The position numbers were made by a program, and so were the translations under genes. The notes below the pieces were generated by a model. It saw only the letters and a program-made list of their open reading frames with translations. It was not told the DNA's origin and made no database searches. 64,000 nt of DNA from Verrucomicrobiaceae bacterium (lineage in GTDB: Bacteria; Verrucomicrobiota; Verrucomicrobiia; Verrucomicrobiales; Verrucomicrobiaceae): assembly GCA_947458455.1 (NCBI GenBank), contig CANGYJ010000001.1, forward strand, positions 310,001 to 374,000. Reading direction: 5' to 3'. Below, piece by piece: positions 52,020-59,594 of this stretch. Numbering within the stretch: the stretch's first letter is position 1; the number at the start of each line of letters is the position of its first letter.

Positions 52020-55000
52020 ATGAATCTTACGCTCCGTCCCGCCACCCTCGCTGCGCTCGATGCCTTCCGCGCTCGAAGGGCCTCCTTGCTCAAAACGCGG
52101 GCGCTTCTCTGCGCCATCGCCTTCGCACTCGCGGCCTTCACCGTGATCGCCCTGCTCGATCGTGCGTGGTTCATGCCGGACGCCATCCGTCCGTGGTTCA
52201 CGCTCGCCACCTATGCCGGAGCCGCCTTCGCCGCGTGGAAAGTCGCGCTGCGCTTCATCTCGCAGGCGAAGGGTCAAACGGGAGCTGCCAAGCTCATCGA
52301 AAGCGCTGAGCCAGCTCTCCGCGAGCGCCTGCTCGCCGCCGTCGAGCTTTCCGCCAGTACCGACGTCAAGGACAGCGCCGAATTCCGCGAGCGCCTCCAA
52401 GACGATGTCGCCAAGGCCGTCGAGGGTGTCGATTGGGACTCGCGCCTGCCTTCTCGCTCGTTGAAGCCGTGGTTCCTCGCCGCCTTTGGCACCGCCGCCG
52501 CCGTCGGAGGGCTTTGCTTCATCCCGCAGCTTCATTTGCCCGGCTTCCTCGCCCGCGCCGCCGTGCCGTTTGCGAACTTCGAGCGCCCCGCCTCGCTCAA
52601 AATCACCATCGCCGAGCCCGCGCCCGCCTCCACGCTTGCGCCCATCGGCAGCGAGGTGCCGCTCATCATCGAAACCGAAGGTGCCAAGGCCGCGACCGCC
52701 ACGTTGGAAATCCTCACCGATGGCAGCCGCCCGCGCAAAATCGAGCTCACCGCCTTTGGCAGCAACCGCTTCGATGGACTCGTCCCCGTCGGTCAAAACG
52801 ACATTCAATACCGCGTCCACGCCGAGGATGCCATCACGCCCTGGCACACGCTTTCCGCCCGCGCACGGCCACGCATCGTCAGCTTCGAAAAAACCATCGT
52901 TCCGCCCCAATACACCGGTTTGCCCGAAACAAAGCTCACCGAGGACCAGGGCGATTTGGAGGCCCTCGAAGGCTCCACCGTCAAACTCACGCTCACCGCC
53001 AATCAGCCGCTCAAATCGACCGAAATCGTCCTAAACGCCGACCTGGCAGAGAAAAAGACCATCGCCTCCACCCTCACCAAAAACACCGTCAGCACGGTCA
53101 ATACCGTCATTGAAGTCACTCCAGCTTCCGCCACCTGGCTCGCCGCCCTCATTTCGGCCGAAACCGGCTTCACCAACGAAGAAACCACCCCCTGGCGCAT
53201 CACCAGCATCCCCGACCTCCCGCCCACCGCGCAGATCACCGAGCCCGCACAGCAAATCGAACTCCTCCCAGATGAAGCCGTGCGCCTCACCGGCCTCGCC
53301 ACCGACGACGTGGGCCTCGCCGCCGTCACCCTCTCCCACGCCATCAACGGCACCAAATGGACCGAGACCCCGCTCGTCATCACCAAAGCCACCAAAGAAG
53401 CTCAAGTCACCCATCTCCTCCTGCTCGCCCCCCTCGGCGTCAAAGCCGGCGATGCCGTGCTCTTGAAGCTCATCGCCACCGACCTCAAAGGCCAGAAAGC
53501 CGAGTCCCAGACCGTCCGCGTCATCCTTCTGGAGCAGACCATCGATCCGCGTCAGCGTGACTGGGCCGAAAACCAGCGCCGCCTCGCCCAGCGGGCCGAT
53601 TCCCTCGCCAAACAAACCCGCGAGCTCACCAAGTCCCTCGACCAAGTCCGCAAGCAGGAGAAAAAAGATCCCGCCCAGGCCGACACCGCCCTCGCCAAGG
53701 CGCAGAGCGAACTGGAGCAGGTCAAAGAGCAGTCCGAGCAGCTCTGGACCGACCTCAAAGAAGCCGCCAAAAACGCCCCGAACCAGCTCGATGCCGCCGA
53801 AGCGCAGCTCCTCGGCGAAAAACTCGCCCAGCTCCGCCGTGAGGCTTTGCCCAAAATGGCCGCCCTCGAAAAAGGCGACACCGAACAGCTCGACGCCCTC
53901 AAAAAAGCCTCCCGCGTGGCTGATGCTGCCGCCGATGCCATCGCCAGCGCCGCCAAGGCCTTCGCCAATGAAGACACCGCCAAGATCGCCGCGCAGGAAT
54001 CTCAACAGCTCCAGCGCCAGGCCAAACTCCTCACCGAAAACGCCCTGCCCGCCAATCGCGACGCCAATCAGCGCCCGCAGTGGCAGGAGCAGCAGCGAGC
54101 CATGATCGCCCAGACCGAGGCTTTGAAGAAAGACCTCATCACCCTCGATGAAACCAGCCGCCAGCGTCACGCCGGTCAGCTCAAAAACCTCGACAAACAG
54201 CTCACCGAAACCGCCACCGACCTCAACGCCTCGCTCGACAAACCGGATCAAACGAAGAGCCCCGAGCACCTCTACGGCGCCAGCGACAACCTCCGCAATC
54301 GCCTTCAACAAACCGCCGACGCCACCCGCACCATCGCCGAGCAAGCCACCAAAGAAGCCGAAGCCCGCCGCGAGCAGCTCATGCGTCAGGACAACCCCGC
54401 CCTCGTCGCCTTGACCGAAGCCCGCCAAGCCCTCTCCGAGGCAGAAGCCGCCGCCAAAAAGCCCGACAAAAAGCCCAAGCAGGAAAAAGACGGCCTCACC
54501 CCCGCCGAGCGTGCTCAGCAAAAACTCGCCGAAGCCTCCAAACAACTCCAGGACCAGGCCGAACTCCGCGAGCAAAACCAGCTCACCAACACCCAGGCCG
54601 CGCTCGATACCAACCGCGCCTCCCGCGCCATCGACGAACTCGCCCAGAACTTCCAAAAAGCCGCCACGCCCGAAGAGATTGCCGCCGCCAAAGCGCAGAC
54701 CGAAAAGCTCGCCCAAATCGCCCGCACCCTTGAGGCCGACGCCGCCATCCAAGAAGCCGCCCAGGCCCTCGCCAGCGCCCAGCAGGCCGCCATGCAGCCC
54801 GCGAACAAGCAGGACCTCCCGCAAACCGCCGCCCTTGCCAAATCCGCCGCCGAAACCCTCGCCGAGGCTCAAAACCAGCTCAACCGCACCACCATTGCCG
54901 CCGAGCTGACCAAACAAAATCCCCAGGCCGCCAACCAACTCCGCCAGCTCAGCGAAGAAGCCAAAAACACCGCCAAGAACGCCGCCGAGCAAAACAAAAC

Positions 55001-56606
55001 CCTCGCCAGTCAAGCCGCCCAGGCCCAGCCGAACCAGCAGCTCAATCAAGACCCCGCCCAGCAAGCCACCGCCCAGGCCCAGATGAAGGCCAACGAACTC
55101 GCCGCCCTCATCGAGCCGCAAACCGCTGCCGCCCGCGCCGATCTCGCCATTCTCACCCCCGAGGTCAGCGACATGATGAAGAAGGTCGCCGCCGATTTGA
55201 AGAAAACGCAAGAGCAGACCCAAAACGCCGCCAACGAAGCCAAAGCCGAAAAACCCGTCGCCGCCGTCGCGGAGAGGGCGCAGGCCTTAAAGGCCGAAAA
55301 TGCTGAAAACACCGAGAAAATGGCCGCTTTGCAGGCTGCCCTGCGTCAGGAAGCCAACGCGGCCGATTTGACGCAAAAACCCGAAATGCAGATGGCCCGC
55401 GCCGCCGATGTCGCCCTGGCCCAAATGCAGAAAAACACCCCTCAAATTGCCCAGAACCTCAAGCAAGCCGCTCAGGCCACCCAAAGCCAACCCCAGGCCC
55501 AAAATTTGCAGCAAGCCGCCGATGCTCAGCAGCAAGCCGCCCAGGCTTTGAACCAGCTCGCTCAAAACATGCAGAAGCTCGAAGACGGCCAGCAGCTCAC
55601 TGAAGGCGAACAAGCCGCCATGGCCGGGATGGAGCAGGAACTCGGCGTCCAAGAGCCGCTCGACGAATCCTACCAGCGAGCCCAGGAACTCGCCGAAATG
55701 GCTCAAAACGCCAAAGAGAACCCGCAGGCCGTGTTAGCCGCCCTTGAAAAAGAGCTGCCGAAAAACCCCGCCATGCAGAAAGCCCTCGCCACCCTCGCCA
55801 AAGACACCGCGCAGCAAAGCGAGGCCGCCGTCGCCAAGGAAAGTCAGCAGCTCAGCAGCACCGGCATGGCCACCCTCGAAGCCGCGAACGACCTCAAACG
55901 CGTCGCCCGCCATCAGGACCGCCTGGGCGACAAACCCGCCGCCCAAACCACCGCCGAAGCCGCCCAGGCCCTCGAAGCCGCCGGCAAGCAAGCCCAAGCC
56001 ACCCAAGCCACGCCCCAGGCCAATCCCCAAGCCGCCCAGCAAGCCCAAGCCAACGCCGCCCAGGCCGCCAAAGCCGCCGAAGCCACCAACAGTAAAACCG
56101 CGCCGCCCCTTTTCACCAGTCCCCTCGCCCAAATGCAGGGCCAAATGCTCGCCCAAGCCCTCGACCAAATCGACGCGCAGCTCAATCCCGCTGCCCAATC
56201 CGGTCAACAAGGTCAGCAAAGTCAATCCGGTCAGCAGGGCCAGCAGCAGCAAGCCGCCCAAAACAGCCTCAACCAAGCCCAACAAGCCCAGCAGCAGCAA
56301 ATGGCCGACAGCCGCAACAGCGGCCAAACGCCGGGCCAGCAGCCCAGCCCGCAGCAGATGGCTCAGAACCAAAAAGAGAGCCAGCAAAACGGCGCTCAGA
56401 GCAACGAAGGCGGCAACAAGAGCCAACTCGTCAAAGCCGAAGGCGAGCTCGGCACCATCACCGTCCTCGTCCCCGGTGATTGGGGCCACCTCCCCCAAAA
56501 AATGGCCGACGACCTCACCGAAGCCACCCGCACCGAAGCCGCCCCCGAATACCGCGCCGCCATCGAAAGCTACTACAAAGCCATTGCTCAGAAGGCGAAG
56601 AAGTAA
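52020..56606 (+). CDS. DUF4175-like membrane protein with very long Ala/Gln-rich coiled-coil region
   Basis: N-terminal TM segments, Ig-like domain with LTGLATDDVGLAAVTLSHAINGTKW, then ~1000 aa of A/Q/E/K heptad-like sequence. Confidence 0.75.
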   Translation: MNLTLRPATLAALDAFRARRASLLKTRALLCAIAFALAAFTVIALLDRAWFMPDAIRPWFTLATYAGAAFAAWKVALRFISQAKGQTGAAKLIESAEPALRERLLAAVELSASTDVKDSAEFRERLQDDVAKAVEGVDWDSRLPSRSLKPWFLAAFGTAAAVGGLCFIPQLHLPGFLARAAVPFANFERPASLKITIAEPAPASTLAPIGSEVPLIIETEGAKAATATLEILTDGSRPRKIELTAFGSNRFDGLVPVGQNDIQYRVHAEDAITPWHTLSARARPRIVSFEKTIVPPQYTGLPETKLTEDQGDLEALEGSTVKLTLTANQPLKSTEIVLNADLAEKKTIASTLTKNTVSTVNTVIEVTPASATWLAALISAETGFTNEETTPWRITSIPDLPPTAQITEPAQQIELLPDEAVRLTGLATDDVGLAAVTLSHAINGTKWTETPLVITKATKEAQVTHLLLLAPLGVKAGDAVLLKLIATDLKGQKAESQTVRVILLEQTIDPRQRDWAENQRRLAQRADSLAKQTRELTKSLDQVRKQEKKDPAQADTALAKAQSELEQVKEQSEQLWTDLKEAAKNAPNQLDAAEAQLLGEKLAQLRREALPKMAALEKGDTEQLDALKKASRVADAAADAIASAAKAFANEDTAKIAAQESQQLQRQAKLLTENALPANRDANQRPQWQEQQRAMIAQTEALKKDLITLDETSRQRHAGQLKNLDKQLTETATDLNASLDKPDQTKSPEHLYGASDNLRNRLQQTADATRTIAEQATKEAEARREQLMRQDNPALVALTEARQALSEAEAAAKKPDKKPKQEKDGLTPAERAQQKLAEASKQLQDQAELREQNQLTNTQAALDTNRASRAIDELAQNFQKAATPEEIAAAKAQTEKLAQIARTLEADAAIQEAAQALASAQQAAMQPANKQDLPQTAALAKSAAETLAEAQNQLNRTTIAAELTKQNPQAANQLRQLSEEAKNTAKNAAEQNKTLASQAAQAQPNQQLNQDPAQQATAQAQMKANELAALIEPQTAAARADLAILTPEVSDMMKKVAADLKKTQEQTQNAANEAKAEKPVAAVAERAQALKAENAENTEKMAALQAALRQEANAADLTQKPEMQMARAADVALAQMQKNTPQIAQNLKQAAQATQSQPQAQNLQQAADAQQQAAQALNQLAQNMQKLEDGQQLTEGEQAAMAGMEQELGVQEPLDESYQRAQELAEMAQNAKENPQAVLAALEKELPKNPAMQKALATLAKDTAQQSEAAVAKESQQLSSTGMATLEAANDLKRVARHQDRLGDKPAAQTTAEAAQALEAAGKQAQATQATPQANPQAAQQAQANAAQAAKAAEATNSKTAPPLFTSPLAQMQGQMLAQALDQIDAQLNPAAQSGQQGQQSQSGQQGQQQQAAQNSLNQAQQAQQQQMADSRNSGQTPGQQPSPQQMAQNQKESQQNGAQSNEGGNKSQLVKAEGELGTITVLVPGDWGHLPQKMADDLTEATRTEAAPEYRAAIESYYKAIAQKAKK

Positions 56607-56612
56607 GGGCCA

Positions 56613-57020
56613 CTAAGCTGTAGCCAACTCGTGAACTTCCTGAGTCTGTTCCGAAGCCGTTTTGGCTGTAGGCATCTTCGAGCGAATGATCTCAGCAGCC
56701 TTACGCAGCCAACGTGTAGCCTCCTCAACGGACTCGGTCACACCAAGCACATGCGTGATGTCGCCAAACCTTAGCATCACCTCCCATTCATCCCTCTCCG
56801 TCAGGTTCAGCGCAAAACCGCGGAAGTCCTCCGGCGAAACCATCGCTCCATGGTAGCAATCCGGTCCAGTTCCCTCAAAAAGAAGGATATTCCCCTCGGC
56901 AAAGTCCACGCACACACTGGAGTCTCTGTCCTCCAGATTGATGAACATGGCTCGCTCAGTGGTTTTAAAGCTACGGATTCTTTTACTCATGGCTTTGGGG
57001 GTGTGAGAGGCGGCGATCAC
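56613..57020 (-). CDS. Hypothetical protein (135 aa), coupled to upstream gene
   Basis: GTG start at 57020 overlapping upstream TGA (GTGA); MFINLEDRDSSVCVDFAEGNILLFEGTGPDCYHGAMVSPEDFRGFALNLTERDEWEVMLRFGDITHVLGVTESVEEATRWLRKAAEII. Confidence 0.65.
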   Translation of the reverse strand: MIAASHTPKAMSKRIRSFKTTERAMFINLEDRDSSVCVDFAEGNILLFEGTGPDCYHGAMVSPEDFRGFALNLTERDEWEVMLRFGDITHVLGVTESVEEATRWLRKAAEIIRSKMPTAKTASEQTQEVHELATA

Positions 57021-57499
57021 TCTTGCCGGAAGGTTTTCAAGACTTCGGTCATTAACTTGATACGCCCTTGTCTCACTTTTGGCAAGACGACACCCAGGAC
57101 TTGATTCACGACTTCAGTCACCCAGGTGACACAGTTATGCGCCCCCGGATGGTCATCGGGATTAAAACTGTAAACTCCTCGCGGCCCAGGCTTCGCCTTT
57201 TCAGCTAACTCTTCGATATGCCAGGGATTGGCTGGCCAGTGCCTAGCGATCAGATTGGCATCACCACACGCATGTTTTTCGATCATGATTTCATCCACGA
57301 TGACGTATCCAGGCACCACATGATCGAAGAGATACTCACGCCATTTCGTCACGCTTTGGTACTCAGCAGGCAAGTCGAGAACTTTAAAAACATACCCCCG
57401 AAACTCGACTGCCTCTTTCTCTTTTTGCCACGCCAAGAACATGTGCCCCGGCTCGTGATCCTCGGGAATCGAAGGCGAAAGATAGACGCTGACTGTCAT
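57017..57499 (-). CDS. Hypothetical protein (160 aa) with GH...HNC arrangement
   Basis: MTVSVYLSPSIPEDHEPGHMFLAWQKEKEAVEFRG...FNPDDHPGAHNCVTWVTEVVNQVLG. Confidence 0.65.
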   Translation of the reverse strand: MTVSVYLSPSIPEDHEPGHMFLAWQKEKEAVEFRGYVFKVLDLPAEYQSVTKWREYLFDHVVPGYVIVDEIMIEKHACGDANLIARHWPANPWHIEELAEKAKPGPRGVYSFNPDDHPGAHNCVTWVTEVVNQVLGVVLPKVRQGRIKLMTEVLKTFRQE

Positions 57500-57543
57500 T
57501 TCACCTGAGCCATAGACTGCAAGCCGCGATAGACAACCTGCCT

Positions 57544-57629
57544 ATGGCCGACGACCTCACCGAAGCCGACGTCGAATACCGTGCCGCCACGGAAGCTTCA
57601 GAGCCATCGCCGAGAAGGCGAAGAATTAG
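57544..57629 (+). repeat. Decayed duplicate of the 3' end of the 52020-56606 gene
   Basis: First 24 nt ATGGCCGACGACCTCACCGAAGCC identical to 56502-56525; then alignable GAATACCG(C/T)GCCGCCA...GAGCCATCGCCGAGAAGGCGAAGAATTAG versus ...AAAGCCATTGCTCAGAAGGCGAAGAAGTAA. Confidence 0.88.
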
Positions 57630-57701: not shown

Positions 57702-59594
57702 ATGTCGCCCCCCATCACTCAAGCTGTCATCTCCGCCAAAGACCTGCGCCTGCAATTCAGCCTCCAGCAGGTTTTCAATGACGCCACGATGAGCGTGCAT
57801 GAGGGCGAGAAACTGGGACTCGTGGGACGTAATGGCAGTGGCAAGACGAGCCTGATGCGCATCATCGCGGGCGCGGAGAAGCCGGATAGCGGTACGGTCT
57901 CGCGTCGCAATGGCATGATCGTGGGCTATCTGGCGCAGGAGTTCACCCTCGATGAGGAGGCCACGGTGCTCGACAACGTGCGATCAGGAGCCAAAACACT
58001 GCTCGAAATGGTTTCACGCTACGAATCCGGTGATTACACGGAGGACCAGGAGAGCGAATTGCTGCATCAAATCCAGCTTCACGATGGCTGGGGCGTGGAG
58101 ACCCATATCACGACGGCGATGAATGAACTAGGCCTGCCGGCCGGGGATCGCCTGGTGAAAGGTCTCTCCGGTGGGGAGAAGCGTCGCGTGGCCCTCGCTC
58201 GCACGCTGGTGGCGCAGCCGGATCTTCTGCTGCTCGATGAGCCGACGAACCATCTCGATGCGGAGTCCATCGAGTGGCTGGAGAAGTTCCTCGTCAGCTT
58301 CAGCGGCGCGGTGCTTTTTGTGACGCATGACCGCTACTTCCTCGACCGCATTGCCACGCGCATCATCGAGATCGACGATGCCCGCATCTATAGCCATCCG
58401 GGCAATTACAGCGACTATTTGGAGAGCAAGGCGCTGCGTGAATCCGTGGAGATGAACACCGAGCGCCGTCGCCAGGCCTTCTTGAGGAAGGAACTGGAGT
58501 TTGTGCGTGCCGGGGTCAAAGCCCAGCGCAGCAAGGCACGCACGCGGCTGGATGAGTTTGATCGCGTGGCGGCCATTGATGCACCGGAGGAGGAACTGGT
58601 GATGGATTTGATCATTCCGCCCGCTCCACAGCTCGCGAACACCATCGTGGAGGCAAAGGACATCGGCGCCCACATCGGGGATCGTTGGCTCTTCTCGCAT
58701 CTCGATCTCAATTTCGAGCCTGGCACCTGCACCGGCATCATCGGGCGCAATGGCCTGGGTAAAACGACGCTACTCCGCCTGCTCATGGGGCTCCAGCAGC
58801 CGGTGGAAGGCCGCGTGGTAATCGGCAAGCGCACGATCTTCAACTACGTGGATCAGCAGCGCCTGCTGCTCGATCCTGAAAAAAGCGTGATGGAAGAGGT
58901 CGCGGGACCAAACAGCGATTTCGTGCAGTTCGGCGATGAGAAGCTGCATGTGCGCACCTACTTGAAGCGCTTCCTTTTCACCGATGAACGCGTCACGATG
59001 CGAGTGAAGGAACTCAGCGGCGGCGAGCAGAGCCGCGTGCTCCTCGCCAAGATCCTCCGCCGTGGGGGGAACTTCCTCATCCTCGATGAGCCGACGAATG
59101 ACCTCGACCTCGCCACCATGCGTGTGCTGGAGGAGGCCGTGCTGGCCTTTGGCGGCTGCGTGTTGGTGGTGAGTCACGACCGCTACTTCCTCGACCGCGT
59201 GTGTGATCGCATCCTTGCCTTTGAAGGCGACGGACGCCTCCACGAGTGTGCCGGGAACTACAGTTACTACCAGGAAAAGCGGGCGAAGCAGGCTGCTGCC
59301 GAGGCGGCTCTCGCCAACGCGACGGTGAAAAAGGACAAGCCAGCCGTCGCCACCGAAAAACCTCGCAAAATGACCAATCGCGAGGCTCGCGAGCATGCGG
59401 AGCTGGAAGGCCAGATCGCTGCTCTCGAAGCCGAAATCGCCGGAATGGAGGCTGAACTCAGCAATCCGGAGACTTTCGTGAAACTCGGCGCTGGCACGAA
59501 TGACTTCATCGCCAAGCTGGAGAGCAAAAAAGCCGAGCTCGATGCCAAATTCACCCGCTGGGCCGAATTGGAGGAGCTCAAAGCCCTGGAATGA
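57702..59594 (+). CDS. ABC-F family ATPase
   Basis: Two ABC cassettes: GLVGRNGSGKTSLMRII / LSGGEKRRVALARTLVAQPDLLLLDEPTNHLD and GIIGRNGLGKTTLLRLL / LSGGEQSRVLLAKILRRGGNFLILDEPTNDLD; no TM; C-terminal coiled coil. Confidence 0.95.
   Translation: MSPPITQAVISAKDLRLQFSLQQVFNDATMSVHEGEKLGLVGRNGSGKTSLMRIIAGAEKPDSGTVSRRNGMIVGYLAQEFTLDEEATVLDNVRSGAKTLLEMVSRYESGDYTEDQESELLHQIQLHDGWGVETHITTAMNELGLPAGDRLVKGLSGGEKRRVALARTLVAQPDLLLLDEPTNHLDAESIEWLEKFLVSFSGAVLFVTHDRYFLDRIATRIIEIDDARIYSHPGNYSDYLESKALRESVEMNTERRRQAFLRKELEFVRAGVKAQRSKARTRLDEFDRVAAIDAPEEELVMDLIIPPAPQLANTIVEAKDIGAHIGDRWLFSHLDLNFEPGTCTGIIGRNGLGKTTLLRLLMGLQQPVEGRVVIGKRTIFNYVDQQRLLLDPEKSVMEEVAGPNSDFVQFGDEKLHVRTYLKRFLFTDERVTMRVKELSGGEQSRVLLAKILRRGGNFLILDEPTNDLDLATMRVLEEAVLAFGGCVLVVSHDRYFLDRVCDRILAFEGDGRLHECAGNYSYYQEKRAKQAAAEAALANATVKKDKPAVATEKPRKMTNREAREHAELEGQIAALEAEIAGMEAELSNPETFVKLGAGTNDFIAKLESKKAELDAKFTRWAELEELKALE

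Follow-up and report, generated by a model that had tools for sequence, protein, structure and literature searches.

In the window (the whole stretch of 64,000 nt analyzed here, from a Verrucomicrobiaceae bacterium), two small genes, A and B, have the intact 3′ end of a DUF4175-like gene on one side and a decayed duplicate of this end on the other. The pair was probably inserted behind this gene through recombination with an incoming DNA made of a gene end followed by the cassette, the resident end being left behind. A scar of the same kind recurs around A/B at another locus and around toxin–antitoxin (TA) pairs in Prosthecobacter, and this recurrence suggests that such pairs spread on DNA carrying its own copy of the neighbor's gene end. 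It is an old open question how chromosomal TA pairs, and other accessory pairs as small, move in the absence of a transposase or an integrase. The arms of a scar can be taken as a donor and a resident allele, which gives the direction of insertion, the donor lineage, and the relative age, and a recurring scar makes the question of mobility testable by counting.

A duplicated gene end in the window

Table 1. Features around the A/B pair (positions in the window)
Feature	Positions	Strand	Basis
DUF4175-like host gene, 1528 aa, 3′ end intact	52020–56606	+	full-length homologues across the genus
Duplicated 3′ end, intact copy, up to stop codon TAA	56502–56606	+	
Gene B, ~125 aa, predicted PH-like fold	56613–56990	−	homologues, AlphaFold/Foldseek
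Gene A, 160 aa, predicted permuted papain-like (NlpC/P60-type)	57017–57499	−	homologues, AlphaFold
Spacer, from the gene A start to the remnant	57500–57543	.	
Second, decayed copy of the DUF4175-like 3′ end, stop TAG	57544–57629	+	
ABC-F ATPase gene, 3′ of the remnant	57702–59594	+	Pfam ABC_tran, E = 4e-56

The preliminary description had the end of the DUF4175-like gene, from 56502, recurring at 57544–57629. These coordinates are correct (Table 1), and the match of the second copy in a search of the whole genome (E = 2.6e-11) is not due to chance. The duplicated stretch covers ~105 nt. Its first 24 nt are indeed identical (56502–56525 = 57544–57567, ATGGCCGACGACCTCACCGAAGCC), and the remainder is, as also described, diverged, with an internal deletion and a kept stop codon. 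Between 57555–57628 and 56528–56605, the identity is 79.5% over 78 columns; in the decayed copy, 15 nt are deleted in frame between two ACCGAAGCC repeats, a 4-nt deletion near the end leads to a frameshift, and TAG replaces the TAA of the gene. Over codon positions 1/2/3, the window copies differ at 2/5/6 sites, the remnant being so decayed that a resident allele and a copy made in place would look alike. The exact 24-nt run is kept at the same place in many relatives and is therefore no sign of recent copying.

No Pfam family matches the DUF4175-like gene above the cut-off; its homologues are 86% identical in G016 and 84% in G014 (G numbers stand for genomes, L numbers for loci). Among 48 genomes of the genus, the second 3′ copy is unique to the window genome. 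The adjacency of the DUF4175-like and ABC-F genes is absent in every relative examined, the flanks varying from genome to genome. The ABC-F gene starts with the ATG at 57702, its frame being open from TTG 57681, and its orthologues in the genus are 81%–89% identical with unrelated upstream flanks. Neither an empty site before the ABC-F gene nor the donor arrangement at the window locus was found among the relatives examined. Nothing in the genus convincingly matched the spacer between gene A and the remnant.

The A/B gene pair

Between the two 3′ copies, there are A and B alone, small, adjacent, and co-directional. The GTGA overlap of the two minus-strand genes, pointed out in the preliminary description, exists, with the frame of B also open from GTG at 57020. 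However, the conserved start of B is ATG 56990 (MSKRIRSF, aligning with MSKTIQ in relatives), which makes the overlap an unlikely functional start. In G013, G012, and G042, the two genes overlap as ATGA. The pair has 52% GC vs. 60% around it, and GC3 values of 57–60 vs. 75–77. Relatives of both genes occur in G013, G012, G042, G058, and a planctomycete, and a relative of B also in G001; gene A was detected in 5 of 386 genomes of the order.

Neither A nor B has a match in Pfam or NCBIfam, a fitting PHROG family, or a known TA family; against PADLOC and PHROGs, there are weak matches only (for B, HEC-01A of PADLOC with E = 0.012). The AlphaFold models are confident, with pLDDT values of 87 (A) and 85 (B). 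For A, the best folds are TseH, Aichivirus 2A, and YiiX, all weak (E at least 0.04). Residues H19, N122, and C123 of A are invariant in 6 homologues, the feature looked for in permuted papain-like (NlpC/P60) proteins being a His ahead of an Asn-Cys motif; folds of this class rank best, though with the same weak E values. The top Foldseek matches of B are PH domains, with a probability of up to 0.99 but E of at least 0.015. On these models, A may be a papain-like effector and B its PH-like partner, and the pair could constitute an addiction, immunity, or conflict module. The retention of B in G001 after the loss of A fits, as a single case, a protective role of B.

In the planctomycete (L109 1981–10231), the A–B homologues belong to an operon: An AAA_35 ATPase lies on one side of them and a trypsin-like protein on the other, and the next gene has a weak EAD7 match; B is there fused to a zinc-dependent phospholipase C-like domain. 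A and B would form a two-gene family without a name so far, one member papain-like and the other PH-like, with this relative in a probable conflict operon.

The same pair at the casp locus

In G013, G012, and G042, A/B has casp, a caspase-like gene, on one side and pabC on the other. In ten relatives, the site is without A/B, either as casp–pabC (G039, G004, G060, G008, and G045) or as casp–mem–pabC, with a small membrane gene, mem, in the slot (G021, G002, G011, G015, and G059). Two genomes keep traces of the pair together with a piece of casp. G001 keeps an intact B and the wrecked start of A, and 54 nt from the 3′ region of casp (85%) follow behind B. In G046, the pair is lost except for a wrecked start of A, with a decayed casp 3′ end behind it (alignment score 155 vs. 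a shuffle mean of 29). This remnant continues through the original ATGA junction into mem; therefore, the downstream copy is the resident end. At its informative sites, the remnant has the G002 allele 18 times vs. 8 for the intact copy of G046 itself. The same pair beside a duplicated target end at another locus, for which the preliminary description had advised a search, is thus seen at casp in G001 and G046, with empty sites in relatives.

Behind B at casp in G013, G012, and G042, no remnant was observed beyond shuffles; at lysS in G058, which also carries A/B, no lysS remnant was observed beyond chance. The casp gene trees show mosaicism: The 3′ ends of the carriers do not come cleanly together, and G021, without A/B, groups with them. 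In the AU test, the carrier clade is rejected in the 5′ part (p = 0.024) and not in the 3′ part (p = 0.22). A carrier clade of casp 3′ ends was considered as proof of a travelling gene end and not retained as such, being suggestive with trees that are not clean.

Two further observations concern this region. The slot between the convergent genes casp and pabC (e.g., L147 5225–5746, L085 8299–9368), which is empty or holds mem or A/B, is a hot slot for cassettes. In G046, ~300-nt direct repeats (92%) lie between casp and a vWA/GATase-like gene (L148 8618–9484) and are unexplained.

The scar at toxin–antitoxin loci

A locus of G023 that had been collected for another purpose displays, in a repeat scan of ~600 kb, the ABC-F gene followed by a HigB–HigA pair and, behind it, a decayed 3′ end of ABC-F. 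Three toxin families (HigB, ParE, and PIN) supplied 81 loci for scanning, with 80 loci of three core genes as controls. Gene-end duplications straddling the pair occur at 9 of the 81 toxin loci vs. 0 of the 80 core-gene loci (Fisher p = 0.0016), a count in which the cases were sorted by inspection, the control loci are orthologous and not independent, and the control figure holds after removal of dispersed repeats and contig-end artefacts. The nine loci are L176 and L184 for HigB, L199, L203, L205, and L219 for ParE, and L240, L243, and L250 for PIN. Repeats at L178, L182, L190, L221, L222, and L227, dispersed or intergenic, were not counted; straddling matches in L183, L200, L135, L136, and the first of L245 were rejected as artefacts of loci cut at contig ends.

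The pairs found within such scars are of the HigBA, ParDE, VapBC, and AbiE types. The duplications at the TA loci vary in length from 35 to 289 nt, and the inserts (~0.7–2.5 kb) consist essentially of the pair alone, without a recombinase. In most cases, the shared sequence ends 0–8 nt past the stop codon (18 nt in L243). Such an end of the similarity at the gene boundary is expected from an incoming cassette sitting tight against that boundary. L205 is the single exception at a 5′ end: A gene start is duplicated there, and the similarity begins exactly at the ATG.

Three loci deserve a description of their own. In L205 (1055–1141 and 1791–1880; G016), a mirror case, ParDE precedes a BatA-like gene, of which the initial ~90 nt have a second copy upstream. 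In L184 (979–1055 and 2011–2052; G046), HigBA follows directly behind tRNA-Pro; on its other side is a decayed copy, 42 nt long, of the 3′ end of this tRNA, and no integrase lies between. In L227 (955–1049 and 1947–2042; G002, contig C224), HigBA, VapBC-like, and ParDE pairs follow one another, the middle pair being enclosed by an imperfect repeat of 96 nt; this row of three could be a cassette array.

An unbiased scan of 1.26 Mb recovered the window scar and gave an AbiE pair between FKBP gene 3′ ends (G016), together with two gene-end duplications around cargo of another kind, a DUF1963 gene in one and clustered secreted genes in the other. A restriction of the scar to TA pairs was rejected, since these two cargoes are enclosed likewise. 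The first, in the window's own genome, is a 99-nt gene-end duplication (91%) around the single DUF1963 gene (L288 18446–18544 and G000:C2:100243–100340, L289 243–340). The second is a 383-nt duplicated 3′ end (92%) of a DUF7133 gene (L259 465–843 and 4323–4704; G000:C1:80465–84704), with a 3.5-kb cluster of secreted or Kelch-like genes between the copies.

Two alleles or one

In six protein-gene cases at the TA loci, the copies differ at codon positions 1/2/3 by 8/3/35 (third positions, 35 of 46; p = 4e-9), the third-position bias being absent in L219. From this excess, it follows that the copies are two alleles whose divergence took place in working genes, before they came together, and this speaks against copying in place. 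An insertion with a long target duplication, in which a transposition- or repair-like event would have copied ~100 nt of the resident gene end, has the same anatomy and size range, and variable duplications of ~100 bp without a transposase are on record (PMC3874152, PMC1643837). In the window, moreover, no other lineage is closer to the remnant than the intact copy by a clear margin, as a copy made in place would have it. We nevertheless hold this explanation to be unlikely: The recent copies at the TA sites differ mainly at third positions and the G046 remnant is G002-like, both indicating two alleles, and the similarity mostly stops near the stop codon, which a random staggered duplication would not give.

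The alternative order of events in the preliminary description, with the DUF4175-like 3′ end first duplicated in tandem and the pair inserted later and independently between the copies, is compatible with the window taken by itself. It is disfavored by the same third-position differences and by the G046 remnant, which sides with the G002 allele rather than with the intact copy of G046. In addition, none of the 47 relatives has a second copy beside its own DUF4175-like gene without the pair, and the scar recurs with pairs of the same kinds at loci that are unrelated, so that this order can be given hardly any credence.

For the younger cases, with copies 94%–98% identical, two strain alleles might have been joined in one contig during assembly. 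Many genomes of the genus, and probably most of those used here, are metagenome assemblies, and third-position differences are expected of strain variants. Yet the decayed cases (the window, G023, G001, and G046 at both casp and the tRNA; 72%–86%) would be left unexplained, three cases come from G016, an assembly of 6 contigs, and the cassette–remnant junctions are without a common sequence that would join contigs. Strain mixing in metagenome assemblies could imitate the youngest scars, not the decayed ones, and such an artefact is very improbable.

Probable route of insertion

The arrangement had been compared in the preliminary description to an integration with duplication of the target end. 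The insertion and the intact 3′ end are supported by the casp locus in G001 and G046. For the integrative part, no such support was obtained: Between the window copies, there is no integrase or recombinase and no att-like structure was seen, so a strict site-specific integrative cassette is not demonstrated. In a wider form, the scar would be the remnant of an integrative element with a gene 3′ end as attachment site, its site-specific recombinase and other genes being lost or acting in trans. Many tyrosine-recombinase elements use gene ends or tRNA 3′ ends, and here gene ends and the 3′ end of a tRNA-Pro are used and an intact end is restored. But inserts containing essentially the pair only, with no recombinase, many unrelated target genes, one of them hit at its start, and duplications whose lengths do not fit one att core make such a remnant rather improbable.

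In the recombination route that we favor, the incoming DNA, probably from a related strain, would carry the 3′ end of the DUF4175-like gene with A/B directly behind the stop codon. The first crossover would be homologous, inside the DUF4175-like gene. The other joint would be non-homologous and fall inside the 3′ region of the resident's own gene. The outcome would be an intact gene, the cassette, and the displaced resident 3′ end, which would later have decayed ahead of the downstream gene. The window scar is older and its codon bias is gone; therefore, for the window, we infer this route, a homology-facilitated illegitimate recombination, and the donor arrangement from the kindred scars. Counting against the route are the lack of an empty site or donor arrangement among the relatives at the window locus, the untidy casp trees, the A/B carriers without a remnant at casp and lysS, the missing third-position bias of L219, and the duplicated gene start of L205.

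More tentatively, the TA pairs of Prosthecobacter and similar pairs may belong to a class of integrase-free mobile cassettes that use a gene end as homology arm and restore it on insertion, a generalization about which we are rather doubtful. If true, cassettes tight against a stop (or start) codon would spread without harming the host gene and would leave a datable scar.

Comparison with known systems

NTP-dependent conflict systems with effector-associated domains have been described (Kaur et al. 2020, PMC7159879). The planctomycete A–B, with its AAA-like and trypsin-like neighbors and the weak EAD match, resembles them, whereas the Prosthecobacter window pair stands alone, without such partners. 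With the type II TA modules (HigBA, ParDE, and VapBC) and the type IV AbiE, A/B shares two small adjacent genes, a patchy distribution, and the same kind of scar in the same genus. In contrast to these modules, A and B match no TA family, and their toxin and neutralizer roles are putative.

Homology-facilitated illegitimate recombination is a described process, known from laboratory integration events (PMC3240628). There, foreign DNA is integrated through a homologous joint on one side and an illegitimate one on the other, which would give exactly the anatomy discussed here; in the present case, the process is inferred from scars around natural cassettes.

The closest description to the scars is the insertion of restriction–modification (R-M) genes with a long target duplication (Nobusato et al. 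2000, Gene 259:99, as presented in PMC1643837, PMC3874152, and PMC3031569), a case of which is that of Helicobacter pylori (PMC3874152, PMC1643837). In both, there is a small addiction-type unit, with variable direct repeats of ~100 bp and no transposase. Here, however, a TA or A/B pair is the cargo, the repeat consists of a gene end with its limit at the stop codon or close to it, and the copies in the young cases are diverged alleles and not a plain duplication, the origin of both copies from the same resident being contradicted at the TA loci by the third-position excess. The present scars differ from that description in their cargo, in their link to gene boundaries, and in the signs that each arm represents another allele.
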